A stretch of 34,725 nt of DNA from Gemmatimonadota bacterium (GTDB lineage Bacteria > Gemmatimonadota > Gemmatimonadetes > Longimicrobiales > Gaopeijiaceae). Below, one piece after another: positions 105-30,627 of the stretch. Below the pieces are notes generated by a model. The model did not search any database and was not told the DNA's origin. It worked only from the letters and a program-made list of their open reading frames with translations. Position numbers and translations under genes: made by a program. The DNA is taken from NCBI GenBank assembly GCA_040882465.1, contig JBBEBG010000013.1:1-34725 (forward strand), written 5' to 3'. How positions within the stretch are numbered: position 1 is the stretch's first letter; every line of letters begins with the position of its first letter.

Positions 105-1529
105 ATGGAGTTCACCGCCCCGGAGCTTTGGTCTCAGGTTCTTTCGTCCGCGAGGACGGGGATCCCGGAGCAGAGCTACCGCACCTGGCTCGCGGGAAGC
201 ACTGCGGTCGGGCTCTCCGACCACGAGCTGATCGTCGAAGCGCCGAGTGCCTTCCATGTCGAGTGGGTGGAGGACAAATACGGCTCGCTTCTCGGTGAAA
301 TCGTCGAGAAAGTGCTGGGGCGCCCGCTCGACCTGACCTTTCGCTGTTCCGCTCCGAGCGCCGCCGCCCAGCTCCCCGCGCTCGAAGTCGCAGAACCGAT
401 GCCCACCACCGCGCCTCCGTTCTCCGGCAGCGGGCCGCGGTCCCGGGGAGCAACTGGATTCGCGGCGGAGCGGGTGAGTGATCCCAAGCGCGCGGCGAAT
501 CTGAACGATCGTTACTCCTTCGACCGATTCGTCGTGGGCGCCAACAATCAACTGGCGGCGGCCGCGTGCAAGGCAGTCGGGGAGCGTCCGGCCAAGAATT
601 ACAACCCCCTCTTCCTGTACGGGGGCGTGGGACTCGGAAAGACGCACCTCATGCACGCGATCGGGCACCTCGTTCTCGAGCGAAATCCCTCCGCGCAGGT
701 CGCCTACGTCACGACCGAGCGCTTCATGAACGAGCTCGTGAACGCGATCCAACAAGGAACGACGCCCGCTTTCCGCCGCCGCTTCCGCATGATCGATCTC
801 CTTCTGGTGGACGACGTACACTTCCTCGCCCAGAAGGAGAGCACGCAGGAGGAGTTCTTCCATACCTTCAACGCCCTCTACGAAAACGGGAAGCAGCTCG
901 TCCTCACGAGCGACCGTCCTCCCAAGGAACTCCCGGGAGTCGAGGACCGACTCGTCTCCCGCTTCGAATGGGGACTCGTTGCGGACATCAAGCCACCCGA
1001 CTACGAAACGCGGGTGGCCATCCTTCAGAAGAAGGCCGCGCTCGACGGCCTCGTGATCGATCCCGAGATCTTCGACTTCATCGCGCGTTCCTGCACCGCG
1101 TCGGTGCGGGAGTTGGAGGGCGCGGTCATCAAGCTCCTCGCTTATTCGTCGCTCCGGAACGAGGAGATCAACATCGACCTTGCACGAGCCGCCCTCCAAA
1201 GCATGATCCGGGGGGGACTTGGGGGGGAAGGCGCACCTCTCACGCCGGAACGGATCCGGGACGAGGTCGCGCAGAGCTGGAACGTGCGCCCGGACGCCCT
1301 CACCTCCAAGAGACGGACGAAGGACGTCACCCTTCCTCGGCAGGTCGCGATGTTCCTCGTCCACGAAATCCTGGACGCCTCCCTCGTTCGAATCGGGCAG
1401 GCCTTCGGCGGGCGCGATCACTCCACCGTAATCCACTCCATCAAGAAGGTCGAACAGGAGATGGAAAAGGACCCGGCATTTGCATCACGGGTGACCGAGC
1501 TTCGTCATAGGCTGGAGGTCCGCGCGTGA
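105..1529 (+). CDS. dnaA: Chromosomal replication initiator protein DnaA
   Basis: The 474-aa product has the full DnaA layout. An N-terminal DnaB-interaction domain (about residues 5-75) is followed by a Pro/Ala-rich linker. The AAA+ domain has Walker A GGVGLGKTH at 173-181 and Walker B LLLVDDVHF with Asp236/237. The C-terminal domain IV carries the DNA-binding signature GRDHSTVIHS near residues 436-445. Length is normal for the family. DnaA-ATP binds 9-bp boxes at oriC and melts the origin. The start is ATG at 105. I see no clear Shine-Dalgarno sequence upstream, but the protein begins where the family does. dnaN follows on the same strand, the classical origin arrangement. Identification is essentially certain. 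Confidence 0.98.
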   Translation: MEFTAPELWSQVLSSARTGIPEQSYRTWLAGSTAVGLSDHELIVEAPSAFHVEWVEDKYGSLLGEIVEKVLGRPLDLTFRCSAPSAAAQLPALEVAEPMPTTAPPFSGSGPRSRGATGFAAERVSDPKRAANLNDRYSFDRFVVGANNQLAAAACKAVGERPAKNYNPLFLYGGVGLGKTHLMHAIGHLVLERNPSAQVAYVTTERFMNELVNAIQQGTTPAFRRRFRMIDLLLVDDVHFLAQKESTQEEFFHTFNALYENGKQLVLTSDRPPKELPGVEDRLVSRFEWGLVADIKPPDYETRVAILQKKAALDGLVIDPEIFDFIARSCTASVRELEGAVIKLLAYSSLRNEEINIDLARAALQSMIRGGLGGEGAPLTPERIRDEVAQSWNVRPDALTSKRRTKDVTLPRQVAMFLVHEILDASLVRIGQAFGGRDHSTVIHSIKKVEQEMEKDPAFASRVTELRHRLEVRA

Positions 1530-1826
1530 CGGACCCGACGCCGAGTCGTCACACCGGCGTGGACAACCCTGTGGATCGAGCGTGGTTTTTCATCACTCCC
1601 GAGAATCGCGTGGAGAGTGTGGAGAAACCGCCTTTCCTTTCCACCCCCTTCCCACCCTTTCCGGTACCCCCGGATGGTGGTGCGCGCCACCCTTTTCCGG
1701 TATCCTGTACCGACATCGTCCACACTTCCACTCTCCCTACTACTACTACTGTTTGAAGTACAATGGAGAAGTAGAAGAGAGCTTCCTGTGGAATAACACG
1801 GTCCCGACCCCATTCGTGAGGCCCGG
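1530..1826. other. Candidate chromosomal origin (oriC) between dnaA and dnaN
   Basis: This 297-bp gap has no convincing gene and is less GC-rich than its surroundings. It holds several degenerate DnaA boxes (consensus TTATCCACA, or TGTGGATAA on the other strand): 1558-1566 (CGTGGACAA), 1570-1578 (TGTGGATCG), 1618-1626 (TGTGGAGAA, 8 of 9), 1716-1724 (TCGTCCACA) and 1787-1795 (TGTGGAATA). A pyrimidine-rich stretch and a CTA trinucleotide repeat at 1737-1750 lie just after the 1716 box. A box cluster plus an unwinding tract between dnaA and dnaN is the known B. subtilis-type layout. No box is a perfect match, and the functional assignment is inference. Confidence 0.6.
1716..1750. promoter_or_regulatory. 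DnaA box followed by a DnaA-trio-like CTA repeat (possible unwinding element)
   Basis: TCGTCCACA (1716-1724, 7 of 9 to the DnaA box) is followed by a 12-nt spacer and then CTACTACTACTACT (1737-1750). The opposite strand reads as TAG repeats. In B. subtilis-type origins, DnaA-trios are 3'-GAT-5' repeats placed immediately beside a DnaA box across a short GC-rich spacer, and they start strand opening. Order and spacing fit that model. It was recognised by pattern only. Confidence 0.5.
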
Positions 1827-2942
1827 ATGAAATTCACGATCACCCGTCAGAACCTCCACCAGGGGCTGACCGCGGTTTCCGCGAGCATTCCTTCCAAGAC
1901 GACCCTTCCGATTCTCTCGAACATCCTGCTCGAGGCGAAGGACGACGCGGTCCGGATCAGTGGAACGGATCTGGACGTCGGTGTACGCGTGCGGGCACCG
2001 GCCGAGGTGAAGGAATCCGGAGCGCTGACCGCGCCGGGTCGAAAGCTCCACGAAATTGCGAGAGAGCTTCCAGACCAGCCGGTGGAAGTAAGCACGCGGG
2101 GGGACCAGGTCGAGCTCCGTTGTGGACGATCGCACTTCAAGTTGAACGGACTTCCACCGGGAGATTTCCCTTCGCTTCCGGAGGTTTCCTTCGAGGGGGG
2201 GTGGACCGCGACCGGGAAAGATCTCCTTTCGCTCATCCGCCACACCGCGTTTGCCGTTTCGACCGAAGAGAGCCGCCCAGTCCTCAACGGAGTCCTCTGG
2301 GAGCTCCGCGATGGTGAGATGAGAATGGTCGCGACGAACGGGCACCGTCTTGCGAAGATGACGATCCCGGCCGGCCCCTCCGTGCAGACGACGGCGCAAC
2401 TCATCGTTCCGCCGGCCGCCCTCCAGCAGGTCCAGCGCCTCTTTGCGGAAGGAGAGACCGTGAAGATCGCACGCGGGGGAAACCACCTCGGTTTCGCCTC
2501 GGAGGGGACAGAGGTTTATACGCGCCTGATCGAGGGGACCTATCCCAATTACGAGCAGGTGATTCCGAAAGACAACGACCGGTTCGCGGTCGTGGACCGG
2601 CGGGGGTTGGAGTCCGCGATTCGGCGTGTAGCAGCGGTCGCATCCGACCAGACGCACCGAATCCGGCTCAAGTTCGAGGAAGGAAGGGTCGAGCTCAACG
2701 TCCTCACCCCGGATCTCGGCGAGGCCCACGACGAGGTAGAGGTGAGCTACTCCGGCGAGCCGCTCGCCATAGGGTTCAACGCGAACTATCTGCTCGAGGT
2801 GCTCCGGTATGTCGGAACGGACGAGGTACGGATGGGATTCAAGGCGCCCGAACGGGCGGCGACCGTGGAGCCCGTGGTCGGGGAAGAAGAGACGCGCCCC
2901 GATTACCTTTGTCTGGTGATGCCTCTCCGGTTGGTGGACTAA
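1827..2942 (+). CDS. dnaN: DNA polymerase III beta subunit (sliding clamp)
   Basis: The 371-aa protein starts MKFTITRQNLHQGLTAV and contains the SIPSKTTLPILSNILLEA block typical of clamp domain 1. It has three repeated clamp domains and the usual C-terminal LVMPLRL ending, which forms the hydrophobic cleft for partner peptides. It forms the ring-shaped dimer that tethers Pol III to DNA. Length matches the family (about 365-380 aa). The start is ATG at 1827, preceded by a weak purine-rich stretch. It is co-oriented with dnaA across the candidate origin and is followed by a convergent pyrE after 24 bp. Confidence 0.98.
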   Translation: MKFTITRQNLHQGLTAVSASIPSKTTLPILSNILLEAKDDAVRISGTDLDVGVRVRAPAEVKESGALTAPGRKLHEIARELPDQPVEVSTRGDQVELRCGRSHFKLNGLPPGDFPSLPEVSFEGGWTATGKDLLSLIRHTAFAVSTEESRPVLNGVLWELRDGEMRMVATNGHRLAKMTIPAGPSVQTTAQLIVPPAALQQVQRLFAEGETVKIARGGNHLGFASEGTEVYTRLIEGTYPNYEQVIPKDNDRFAVVDRRGLESAIRRVAAVASDQTHRIRLKFEEGRVELNVLTPDLGEAHDEVEVSYSGEPLAIGFNANYLLEVLRYVGTDEVRMGFKAPERAATVEPVVGEEETRPDYLCLVMPLRLVD

Positions 2943-4635: not shown

Positions 4636-6102
4636 GTGCAGACCGAGTCGGCCTGGATGAGCCTCAGACGGCGGTTCGTCCTCGCGCTCGCGGGATTTTC
4701 CCTTCTCCTTGCGGTGGCCGGAGGGTGGTTCGCCTGGAGCGTCACGAGCCGGGCGCTCGAGCGGGAGCTCGACGAGAAGCTGGTCTGGGTGGCGGGAGCG
4801 GCGGCGGAGGTGGGGCTAGACGGCGATCAGATCCTTCAGTTGCGGCCCGGAGACGAGCGGGGCCTCCTCTATACCGGGAATCGGAATCGGCTCCTGGGCC
4901 TCCTCCGCTACGTGGACGAGGCTCACCTCTTCCGCCGCGAAAACACGCTTCTCGTGACCTCTTACGCTCCCGAGGAGTTTCCCATCGGGACCGAGTTGCG
5001 CTTCCTCGCGGCCTACAGGGCCGAACTCGATCAGGCCTGGTCGGCGGGCGAAGCCGTGACACCCGTCTTCCAGGGCGAGGACGGACGATTCTACAAATAC
5101 GGCTTCAAGCGGCTCGGTGAAACGGACGCGATGCTCGTCGTCCTCATGCAGGCGGACTTCCTCGCGCCCCTGGTAGATTTTCGAAACACACTCGTAGCCG
5201 GGTCCCTGGCCGCGGTCCTCCTCGCGGTGCTGCTCGCGGCCCTTCTCGCCGGGAATATCGTCCGCCCTCTCGAGCGGCTTTCGCGGGCCGCCCTCCGGAT
5301 CCAGCGCGGACGGTGGGACCAGGCGATTGCGGACGAAGGAGGCGACGAGCTGGGGCGGCTCGCGCGGGCGATGGAGCGGATGCGGACGGGGATCGTGCAA
5401 CGCGACGAGCAACTTCGCCTCATGCTCGCCCAGGTCGCCCACGAGATTCGAAATCCCCTCGGGGGCCTCGAGCTCTTCGCCTCGGCCGCGCTCGAAACCG
5501 AAGATCGTGAGGAGAGACTTCGCTTGCTCGGGAGGGTGCGGAAAGAGGTGGAGGCCCTGAACGAAATCATCAACTCGTTCCTCACCTTCGCCCGCCCTCT
5601 TCACCCCCAAGTCGAACTCCACGATCTCCGCCATCCCCTCCAGGAAGCCGCGGACCTCATCGAGATGCAGATCGCCTGGGACGGAGGGACGCTCTCGACC
5701 GTTCTCCCCGACGAGCCGCTCCTTGGCCGCGCGGACCCGGACCATGTGAAGCGCGCGGTGCTCAATCTCCTCCAGAACGCGGCGCAGGCGGGAAAACACG
5801 TGCGACTCGAGGCGTGGTGGCAAAACGGGGAGGCCGTAGTCTCGGTCTCCGACGACGGTCCGGGGGTCCGGGAGGAGCTGCGCCAGAACATCTTCGAACC
5901 CTTCGTGACCGACCGTGAGCAGGGGGCGGGCCTCGGGCTCGCCATCGTGAAGCGGGTACTCGAATCGAATGGGGCGAGGGTCGTATTGGTAGATCCGGAG
6001 GAGGCGAAGGACTCCGGCGTGCCGGTGCGCCCCGTTGGGAGGGGTGCCGAATTCCGAGTATATTTCCAAGGATCCGAGGATCTCCCCGCCGCATTGCCCT
6101 GA
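4636..6102 (+). CDS. Membrane sensor histidine kinase
   Basis: The 488-aa protein has a first membrane helix (about residues 10-30), a periplasmic sensor region of about 150 residues, a second helix (about 186-206) and a HAMP linker (NIVRPLERLSRAALRIQRG). The dimerisation/phosphoacceptor box is AHEIRNPLGG with His269. The HATPase domain has N box LLQNAAQAG, G1 DDGPGV and G2 GAGLGLAIV. It should autophosphorylate on His269 and pass the phosphate to the adjacent NtrC-type regulator, encoded 44 bp downstream. The start used is GTG 4636, behind a GGAG-type ribosome site. ATG 4657 (MSLRRR) is an alternative that keeps the first helix. The signal sensed is unknown. Confidence 0.92.
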   Translation: MQTESAWMSLRRRFVLALAGFSLLLAVAGGWFAWSVTSRALERELDEKLVWVAGAAAEVGLDGDQILQLRPGDERGLLYTGNRNRLLGLLRYVDEAHLFRRENTLLVTSYAPEEFPIGTELRFLAAYRAELDQAWSAGEAVTPVFQGEDGRFYKYGFKRLGETDAMLVVLMQADFLAPLVDFRNTLVAGSLAAVLLAVLLAALLAGNIVRPLERLSRAALRIQRGRWDQAIADEGGDELGRLARAMERMRTGIVQRDEQLRLMLAQVAHEIRNPLGGLELFASAALETEDREERLRLLGRVRKEVEALNEIINSFLTFARPLHPQVELHDLRHPLQEAADLIEMQIAWDGGTLSTVLPDEPLLGRADPDHVKRAVLNLLQNAAQAGKHVRLEAWWQNGEAVVSVSDDGPGVREELRQNIFEPFVTDREQGAGLGLAIVKRVLESNGARVVLVDPEEAKDSGVPVRPVGRGAEFRVYFQGSEDLPAALP

Positions 6103-13824: not shown

Positions 13825-16386
13825 TCACTTTCCCAGGACTTCGTTGAGGATCCCCGACAGCTCCTCCGGGGAAAACGGCTTTCGAAGGAAGGCCGCCGCA
13901 TCGTAGCGCGCTTCCCGCGACAGCTCCTCTTCCGAAAAGCCCGAGATGAGGATGACGGGGTGCGGGTGGCCCCGTTCCTTGAGCACCCGTACGAGCTCGG
14001 AGCCGCTCATCTCCGGCATGACGACGTCACTGATGATGAGGTCAACCGCGGAGGGATCGGCCTCCACGAGCTCCAGGGCCTCCCGACCGTTTCCCGCGCG
14101 CAAGACGACGTGCCCGGCCCGCTCGAGGACGAGCGTCACGATGCCGCCGACGCCGGGATCATCTTCGACGACCAGAATGCGGGCGCGCTCCGCCGCACCG
14201 CTCCGGAGTCTCGAACCGCGGCCTTCGCTCTCGTCCGCCGCTCCGGCAACCGACGGAAAGATGAGGCGGAAGGTCGAGCCTTTCCCGACTTCGCTCTCGA
14301 CAGCCACGAATCCCCGGCTCTGTTTCATCATTCCGTAAACCATCGAAAGACCCAGCCCCGTCCCCTGTCCCTCCGGCTTCGTCGTAAAAAAGGGTTCGAA
14401 GATCCGATCCAGAATCTCGGGAGGGATCCCCGTGCCCGTGTCTTCGACACTCAGGACGGCGTAACGCCCGGGCGCCATTTCCCATGGCATGGCCGCCGCG
14501 TCTTGCCGCGTGAACTCCCGCGTCTCCACGCGAAAAGTGAGGGATCCCTTCCCGGGGATCGCGTCGCGCGCGTTGATCGAAAGGTTGAGGAGGACCTGCT
14601 GGAGCTGAATCGGATCCACGCGCACGAAGGTCCCAGCCTCCGGGGTCACGAAACGGAGCGCGACTCGGGTCGGGATGAGGGGTCGGAGGAGTCCCTCCAT
14701 GTCGGTGGCCGTTGCCGAGAGGTCCACGATCCGCTCCTGCAGGACCTGGCTGCGGCTGAAGGCGAGGAGCCGGCTGGTCAGGCTTGCCGCGCGCTGGGAG
14801 GCCGAGATGATCTGACCGATGTCCTCCCGGAGCGGGGAATCCACCGGGAGGTCGTCCAAGAGGAGACGGGCGCGGCCCAAAATCACGGTCAGCACGTTGT
14901 TGAAGTCGTGCGCGATTCCGCCCGCGAGTCGCCCCACCGCCTCCATCTTCTGCGCCCCACGGATCCGCCGGTCGAGCTCCCTCCGCTCCGTGGTGTCGGA
15001 AGAGATCCCGATCACCCCCCTGAACCGTCCCTCCTCGTCGAAGATCGGGGAGTCGGTGATTGAGGCGTGGAAGAGCGAGCCATCCTTCCGTCGGACCTCG
15101 AATTCGCCGCTCCAGGACTCGCGGCTCTTGAGAATCTCGAGGATTCGCGCGGCGTCCGGGGCGTTTTCCCCGAAGGGCTTGATCTCGCGGATGGAGCGAC
15201 CGATCACCTCCTCGTTGGCCCATCCATAAAGCTCTTCGGCGGCGGCATTCCAATAGAGGATCCGCCCCCCTTCGTCCGTGGCGATCACCGCCTGGCCGAC
15301 CGCCTCGAGGAGACTCGCCTGGAATCGGATCCGTTCCTGGGCCCCCCGACGCTCTGTGATGTCACGCGCGCCGCCCACCATTCGGACCGGATTACCTTCC
15401 TCGTCCCGCACGACAAATCCACGGTCCAGGAATCGCGCATAGGTTCCGTTCCCGAGCTGGAACCCATACTCGGCCTCCCAGTCGCTACCCCCGCCGTCTA
15501 TCACTTCCTGGATCCCGCGCAACACCCGGTCGCGGTCCTCGGGGTGGATCCTCTCGGACCACGATTCGAGATCGGGGCGCAGATTGGCGATCTCGAGGTC
15601 GGGGGTCGCGTGGATACCGACTCCCCACCAATAAACGCCGGCTTGAAGGTCCCAATCCCAGAGGGCATCGGCGGTCACGCGGGCGATGTTCCGGAATCGC
15701 TCCTCGCTCTCTCGAATCTTGGCTTCGACCAGGTGTCGTTCGGTGATGTCACGGAAAAAGACGGCGATCCCCCCGGTCGTCCGGGAAAGTCGGACGCTTA
15801 GCCAACCCTCGCCCGAAGGGTGGAGGGCCTCGAACGCGGCGGTTTCCCCCTGGTCCATCGTCCTCCGGCAGGCGTCCTCGGCGGGCGTTCCGACGAGGTC
15901 GGGAAAGACCTCCCAAACGACCTTTCCCTCGAGGTCGTGTTTCGAGAGGCCCAGAATCCGCTCCGCCTCGGCGTTCAGGTAATCGAAGCGCCAGGACTTG
16001 TCGAGCATGAAGACGCCGTCCCCGATTCCGTCCATCGTCCGGCGGAACCAGGCCCGGAGCGAAGGGAGATCCGGCTCGCCGGCGAACCCGCCGCTCGCAT
16101 CCTGCGCGACGGACAGGCGCGCACGGGACCCGCCAAAGGTGATCTCCCGAGTCGCGATCTCGCGGGAGTGCATCCGATCCCGCTCGGCGGCTTCGATCTC
16201 AGGAAGGGTAGTCGTGAGGAGGTCGCCCCAGGGGCGTCCCAGGAACTCCTCCGCGGCCCGATTCACGGCGAGGATGCGCCCCGACACGGGGTCATGCACC
16301 CACATCGCCTGAGGGTGGGCCTCGAAGATCTCCCGGAACCCGGGTTCCCCGGGCTCGCGAGAGGAGGATTCGGACGGTCGGGGCAT
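13825..16386 (-). CDS. PAS-rich hybrid histidine kinase with C-terminal receiver
   Basis: The 853-aa protein has no membrane helix. About four PAS domains come first: near 15-110 ([22 protein letters not shown]), 115-230 ([21 protein letters not shown]), 235-350 (PAS_3/PAC type) and 355-480 ([23 protein letters not shown]). HisKA follows, with His493 in [12 protein letters not shown]. The HATPase domain has [19 protein letters not shown] and [11 protein letters not shown]. The C-terminal receiver has phosphoacceptor Asp787 in [12 protein letters not shown]. It should be a cytoplasmic sensor, perhaps of redox, light or ligand through the PAS domains, relaying phosphate His to Asp and on to the neighbouring lone receiver. 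The start is ATG 16386, where the first PAS begins soon after. Confidence 0.93.
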
Positions 16387-30554: not shown

Positions 30555-30627
30555 CTCCCGCGGCAGGACTCGAACCTGCGACCCGCTGATTAACAGTCAG
30601 CTGCTCTACCAACTGAGCTACACGGGA
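30555..30627 (-). tRNA. tRNA-Asn (GTT)
   Basis: On the minus strand a complete 73-nt cloverleaf can be drawn. The acceptor stem is TCCCGTG with CGCGGGA (one G-T pair), followed by discriminator G. The D arm is GCTCAGTTGGTAGAGC. The anticodon stem GCTGA/TCAGC closes the loop CTGTTAA with anticodon GTT. The T arm is GCAGG-TTCGAGT-CCTGC. The CCA end is not encoded. Its 3' end points left, toward two interrupted copies of its own 3' half at 22.7 and 19.1 kb, which suggests use as an integration site. Confidence 0.97.

Follow-up and report, generated by a model that had tools for sequence, protein, structure and literature searches.

We found that the interval between dnaA and dnaN in the window, by which we mean the whole 34,725-bp contig (C13) of a 3,534,118-bp draft genome in 41 contigs, is probably the chromosome origin (oriC), with a basal unwinding system (BUS) of the Bacillus subtilis type. 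This assignment draws on its DnaA boxes, a genome-unique trio tract, the conservation of that tract in the family and a skew minimum in a relative. We further predict, with some reservation, that the unwinding core combines this forward BUS with a second DnaA module, which faces it and would seat a filament on the opposite strand. The addition of the facing module to the forward BUS is supported statistically, and its function is putative, as are the DnaA binding and the filaments, all of which are read from the sequence.

The dnaA-dnaN interval and its forward unwinding system

The gene on the left, dnaA (105..1529, + strand), codes for 474 residues with all the DnaA domains (Pfam DnaA_N, Bac_DnaA and Bac_DnaA_C), and the gene on the right, dnaN (1827..2942, +), for a 371-residue DNA polymerase III beta clamp with three Pfam beta-clamp domains. 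As far as its translation tells, DnaA is intact: residues 7-470 align to chain A (DnaA) of 8btg, the closest solved structure (E 2.5e-126), which we take to be the cryo-EM structure of the B. subtilis BUS. In this alignment, GRDHSTVIH lies opposite GRDHTTVIH and V212/I215 lie opposite I190/I193 of the 8btg chain, of which I190 is described as a single-strand binding residue of the ISM (PMC8287927). The nearest named relatives of this DnaA by identity are all from Gemmatimonadota, namely T3Sed10_83R1m (58%), Candidatus Benthicola marisminoris (56%) and jk18x9bins.40 (54%); the first and the last recur among the same-family genomes as G111 and G075, identical letter for letter in the stretches compared. 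No same-genus genome was found in the searches for relatives and family members, and the "close relatives" used below are therefore other genera of the family. The home genome also codes for another protein in which two DnaA-like ATPase stretches lie in a single frame open for 939 aa (G000:C36:50403-52058, -), and weaker second DnaA-like matches of a similar kind are displayed by many relatives. Near the origin lie a HAMP sensor histidine kinase (4636-6102, +) and a large PAS hybrid histidine kinase with a receiver domain (13825-16386, -), and the sole RNA gene in the window by ARAGORN and Rfam gathering scores is a tRNA-Asn (GTT) at 30555-30627 (-).

Exactly five 9-mers with at most two mismatches to the consensus box TTATCCACA are found in 1530-1826, as an earlier note on this DNA had counted, and, again in line with it, none is perfect: TTGTCCACG (1558-1566, -, two mismatches), CGATCCACA (1570-1578, -, two), TTCTCCACA (1618-1626, -, one), TCGTCCACA (1716-1724, +, two), which is the box of the forward BUS, and TATTCCACA (1787-1795, -, two), an inverted box on the far side of the AT-rich stretch. 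The positions given earlier were right; what had been missed is that 1787-1795 may belong to a facing element. The interval holds 16.8 boxes per kb against 1.09 per kb across the whole window, and its dinucleotide shuffles hold a mean of 0.59 boxes and a maximum of 4, with 0 of 500 reaching five. The forward box has a weak tandem partner, ACTTCCACT (1724..1732, +, four mismatches), such that the two cores start at 1719 and 1727, 8 nt apart, the same core spacing as is seen in Bacillus-group loci; at the place of ACTTCCACT, many relatives show a better tandem-box match (TTCCACA or ATCCACA).

The box at 1716-1724 is followed by a pyrimidine-rich 12-nt spacer, CTTCCACTCTCC (1725-1736, +), and then by the trio tract CTACTACTACTACT at 1737-1750 (in its longer form CTACTACTACTACTG, 1737-1751), as the earlier note had described. 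The tract belongs to a forward DnaA-trio array (1737..1754, +) of four CTA repeats, CTG and TTT, which present 3'-GAT-5' trios on the - strand, so that the order box-spacer-trio and the polarity, with the box on the + strand and the trios on the other, are those of the DnaA-trio model. The predicted AT-rich unwinding core (1737..1780, both strands) has 36% G+C in a contig of about 66%, and only 18 of the 34,685 40-nt windows of the contig, its own counted, are at or below 35% (minimum within 1737-1780). The repeat CTACTACTACTA occurs a single time in the draft genome, both strands counted, at 1737-1748, as against two occurrences of a reversed-pattern control; the number expected from base composition is about 0.06 per genome and about 2.5e-6 on the + strand of the interval. 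The layout proposed earlier agrees with the published BUS rule (PMC8287927) on these points: a box with at most two mismatches to TTATCCACA (two in TCGTCCACA), a spacer of 0-16 nt (12 nt), at least three consecutive 3'-NAN-5' trios, most commonly 3'-GAT-5' (six trios), and a location in the chromosome origin (between dnaA and dnaN, with the skew minimum at dnaA in the relative G004).

The tract is also conserved across genera of the family, as the earlier note would have it. DnaN was matched in 114 of the 121 family genomes, and 111 of these (37 genera) were used, excluding the partial DnaN matches of G101, G093 and G128. The 200 nt ahead of dnaN contain CTACTACTA on the + strand in 58/111 genomes (26/37 genera), as against 0/111 on the - strand; the shorter CTACT[AG] is found upstream of dnaN in 89/111 (36/37 genera) and on the - strand in 9/111. 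In an alignment of 16 hand-chosen near-relative genomes, scored as bits per column over 12 segments, the forward trios have the highest value of all segments (1.74) and the forward box has 1.47, with an interval mean of 0.86. A crude version of the BUS rule finds the element in 97 of 130 regions, some of these hits being low-scoring or off the conserved tract and two genomes, T3Sed10 and jk18x9, being counted twice; its commonest spacer is 12 nt, a length that the scoring mildly favored. The same order of box, tandem box and CTA is displayed by the Bacillus-group loci. In 21 of the 23 genomes of genus g26 (e.g., L179, L188 and L194) and the single g23 genome (L208), CTACTACTA is replaced after the boxes by [CT]TATGATGA, in which the middle base is no longer A past the first trio; these are candidate deviant trios of the kind suspected in PMC8287927.

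A GC-skew switch at this position, which had been proposed as a check, was looked for in G004, a same-family one-contig genome of 4.22 Mb, from forty 20-kb samples (19% of the genome). The cumulative minimum falls at the two samples that bracket dnaA (3.12 Mb): the skew is negative in 20/20 samples from about 1.06 to 3.06 Mb, and positive in 7/9 samples from 3.27 Mb on and in 10/10 below 1 Mb. The home contig starts only 104 bp before dnaA, and its skew can therefore be read on the right side only; in overlapping 1-kb windows, the cumulative value there is -0.23 near 2 kb, -0.26 near 16 kb and +0.54 near 31 kb, an unsteady rise that makes for weak evidence.

The earlier note saw in such an element a useful example outside Bacillota, but it is not unusual there: PMC8287927 predicted a BUS in the origins of 1755 of 2070 species and gave biochemical demonstrations in Gram-negative species, with S. 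elongatus, H. pylori and D. radiodurans as the cases shown. The forward BUS is, for this reason, ordinary in kind, and we see it as one more lineage with a known and probably ancestral system; a text search of the main text of PMC8287927 returned no mention of Gemmatimonadota.

An inverted element facing the forward system

On the - strand, 14 bases past the forward trio tract, lies a second element that is weaker than the forward BUS and points back at it. Read from its box TATTCCACA leftwards, it consists of a 9-nt facing spacer (1778..1786, -; 12 nt if counted to its CTA) and a facing DnaA-trio array (1766-1777, -) of the form CTT CTA CTT CTC, which presents the trios 3'-GAA-GAT-GAA-GAG-5' on the + strand. 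The BUS rule, which is permissive, accepts the element at 1795-1766 (-) with its two box mismatches, 9-nt spacer and four trios. The array has one CTA among its four trios and by itself reaches only p of about 0.01-0.015 in the home genome.

Within the family, the inverted core GTGGA is found 10-75 nt past the forward tract in 62/111 genomes, or 21.3/37 genera-weighted, against a mean of 2.13 and a maximum of 4.56 in shuffles. The direct-orientation core downstream is at chance (2.5/37 genera-weighted vs 2.21 in shuffles), and we accordingly rejected a second box in that orientation; the backward controls of the core test give 0.0 and 4.1 vs about 2.2 in shuffles. A complete facing BUS, with a box of at most three mismatches, is found in 5.6/37 genera-weighted, as against 0.05 (at most 0.7) in shuffles and none in the direct-orientation control; either of two more stringent score cut-offs lowers this to 3.57/37 vs 0.02 and 0.01 in shuffles. 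In the 16-genome alignment, the facing trios (1.16 bits) and facing box (1.30) stand above the facing spacer (0.58), the middle (0.82) and 1796-1815 (0.45), with the trios exceeding 1640-1715 (0.91) and the mean of the interval by a modest margin. The exact inverted core is present in 25 of the 37 family genera and in no genome of the other 12. Anchored on that core, a family-wide facing array was not upheld, because a majority with three trios including CTA is seen in just 7 of the 25 genera, and the claim of a facing array is narrowed to that extent.

The wider sample adds 14 genomes from two other families of the order and 40 from seven further families of the class, and the array test across the class covers 159 genomes (84 genera, 10 families), the remaining six of the 165 (G159, G155, G195, G173, G189 and G148) having been dropped, as a forward tract next to dnaN was not found or accepted in them. 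The tract was placed by hand for G082 and G074 in the inverted-core, complete-module and class array tests, and also for G163, G215 and G034 in the last of these. Minus-strand trio arrays at p<0.05 are found in 25/84 genera (21/84 with new shuffles) and plus-strand control arrays in 9/84 (6/84 with new shuffles), an excess over chance that probably stems from the forward array's tail. In the 62-nt segment ahead of the boxes, 3/83 genera have a minus-strand array and one has a plus-strand array. The trio weights were set by hand after the family had been seen and the shuffle p values ignore shared ancestry, so that only the counts from outside the discovery family are independent of the discovery: these are 17/47 genera for downstream minus-strand arrays (16/47 with earlier shuffles) vs 5 for the plus strand, and 2/46 vs 1 upstream. 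The 41 comparison loci labelled as Bacillota from their record titles, with shorter segments (median 54 nt), show a minus-strand array in 1/41, a plus-strand control array in 2 and an inverted core in 3.

The two parts of the facing element are distributed unevenly. Box and array are jointly displayed mainly by genera near the window, plus the one f8 genus; families f2 and f3 have the inverted core in 8/13 genera and a significant array in 0/13, and f4, f5, f6, f7, f9 and f10 have a significant array in 15/33 genera and the inverted core in 1/33. Outside the discovery family, the inverted core reaches 10.0/47 genera-weighted vs 7.0 for the direct core downstream, which makes the enrichment of the box mainly a property of the family and its order. 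Six non-Bacillota loci from other phyla include arrays at p<0.05 in L073 and L079 and the inverted core in L055 and L077, and none has both. In the dnaA-dnaN interval of L055 (Candidatus Saganbacteria), a facing BUS can be picked out by eye, opposite CTACTATTATTACTA and made up of TTATCCACT, 12 nt and CTATTATTA on the - strand; with p = 0.21 for the array alone, it is a lead only. Separately, in family genera such as g6, g34 and g25 (e.g., L165, L153 and L173), a conserved - strand motif resembling GATACTATC lies about where the window's clade has its facing trios; its TAGTAT is found in 7.04/37 genera-weighted vs 0.59 in shuffles and does not amount to a three-trio array.

Competing readings of the facing element

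The main rival to a second origin module is regulation of dnaN by the inverted box: only the forward BUS would be an origin element, and the conserved inverted box and the TAGAAG-type sequence next to it would serve DnaA in regulating the gene, as its promoter or operator. We regard this as rather unlikely, though it has the position of the element, 32-61 bases ahead of the dnaN start, on its side, along with the TATAGA- or TACAAT-like hexamers that can be seen by eye immediately to the left of this array, both in the window and in several near relatives, and the inverted cores of f2 and f3 that come without a significant array. Against these points, a scan of 1500-1900, which covers promoters of the sigma-70 type only, gave neither a promoter nor, in the companion search, a terminator, and a promoter or terminator reading of the region was dropped; moreover, the forward trio tract starts within the would-be -35 position (1736-1741). 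An operator would likewise not be expected to show the period-3 arrays, with A as the middle base on the + strand, that 21-25 of 84 genera have.

A further rival holds that base composition and a purine-rich, low-complexity sequence close to the ribosome-binding site gave rise to the facing array incidentally, and that the forward BUS alone is of consequence; we consider this improbable. The array is indeed purine-rich on the + strand and was scored with hand-set weights, the p value in the window is about 0.015 on its own, and the plus-strand control exceeds chance (9 and 6 of 84). However, the dinucleotide shuffles of the same segments preserve their composition, the upstream segments of the same genomes (3/83) and the Bacillota loci (1/41) yield few such arrays, and the array lies about 40 bases from the ribosome-binding site in columns better conserved than those of 1796-1815 (1.16 vs 0.45 bits). 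Still harder to credit is that the downstream conservation reflects the folding of single-stranded DNA or RNA into a dyad or hairpin and not reading by DnaA: palindromes do occur in some relatives, such as TTTCTATATATAGAAA (G017, p 0.02), but dyads at p<0.05 are seen in 5/84 genera, which is about chance and led us to reject this reading, the window itself has p = 0.72, and 1500-1900 holds no terminator-like site and no Rfam match at gathering scores.

Predicted initiation mechanism and comparison with known origins

Under the favored reading of a forward BUS with a second, facing module, DnaA would bind at 1716-1724, at the weak tandem partner of this box and at the boxes upstream, and a filament would then grow rightwards along the - strand, gripping the 3'-GAT-5' trios and opening the AT-rich stretch at 1737-1780 as in the B. 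subtilis BUS. From the facing module (1795 to 1766, -), a second filament of DnaA would grow leftwards along the + strand. With DnaA on each of the separated strands, each would be marked for one helicase, and DciA-assisted helicases would be delivered one per strand; the facing copy may in this way help to start the copying machinery in both directions. In published work, boxes are read by domain IV of DnaA and trios, as single strand, by DnaA, whose filament is proposed to be a docking site of the helicase loader (PMC10721633, PMC6669920). DciA was found in 19/19 genomes searched, and the DnaB_2 (DnaD) domain PF07261 in 0/19, the home genome included (the positive controls B. subtilis and L. 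lactis match), and these genomes thus returned no match for the DnaD protein that goes with a DRE/DnaD-type origin.

The gene order dnaA-oriC-dnaN is shared with the B. subtilis BUS, which is made of boxes 6/7, a spacer and DnaA-trios (PMC8287927, PMC6669920, PMC10721633), as are the box, the 12-nt spacer, the CTA repeats on the box strand and the AT-rich stretch after the trios (PMC8287927). Unlike in B. subtilis, the boxes here are poorer, with two mismatches in the key box, and a second module faces the first on the opposite strand. For the second strand in B. subtilis, the proposed mark is DnaD bound to the DnaD recognition element (DRE), and the two systems would be alike in having a strand-specific signal proposed to place helicase loading off the strand of the first filament; they differ in that the DRE, read by DnaD, is a TnnT motif located on the strand complementary to the trios, and the signal here is a candidate DnaA site beyond the trios (PMC10201434). 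With no DnaD match in the 19 genomes, a DnaA module that faces the first would solve the marking of the second strand in a different way. The oriC of T. maritima, with its eTrio, also has DnaA-bound TAG trinucleotides on one strand and a role for an inverted box, DnaA box 2, which lies within the box cluster and aids one head-to-tail oligomer (PMC10316083). Unlike this, the inverted box described here lies beyond the unwinding region and points back with an array of its own. In E. coli oriC, the two DnaA arrays share one flank of the unwinding element; unlike them, the two modules here bracket the unwinding stretch, and each has trios. The E. coli origin does have two opposite DnaA assemblies, of which the right-hand one stimulates helicase loading (PMC13220808, PMC8235120).

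A search of open-licence PMC text, read in selected passages, gave no description of facing box-trio modules. The published BUS search keeps the best-scoring BUS per origin, so that more than 99% of genomes end up with a single candidate (PMC8287927), and a second, weaker, facing module would hence be dropped by design. Extending the scheme beyond the window, we put forward only tentatively that origins of the class in general have two facing box/trio modules bracketing one unwinding stretch, with a DnaA filament on each strand that would dock a DciA-delivered helicase. The facing half, if it works, bears on the arrangement of dual helicase loading, which is stated as open (PMC10721633; PMC10201434), and a two-module origin of this kind, if true, would be a DnaA-only answer to the loading of two helicases in opposite directions.
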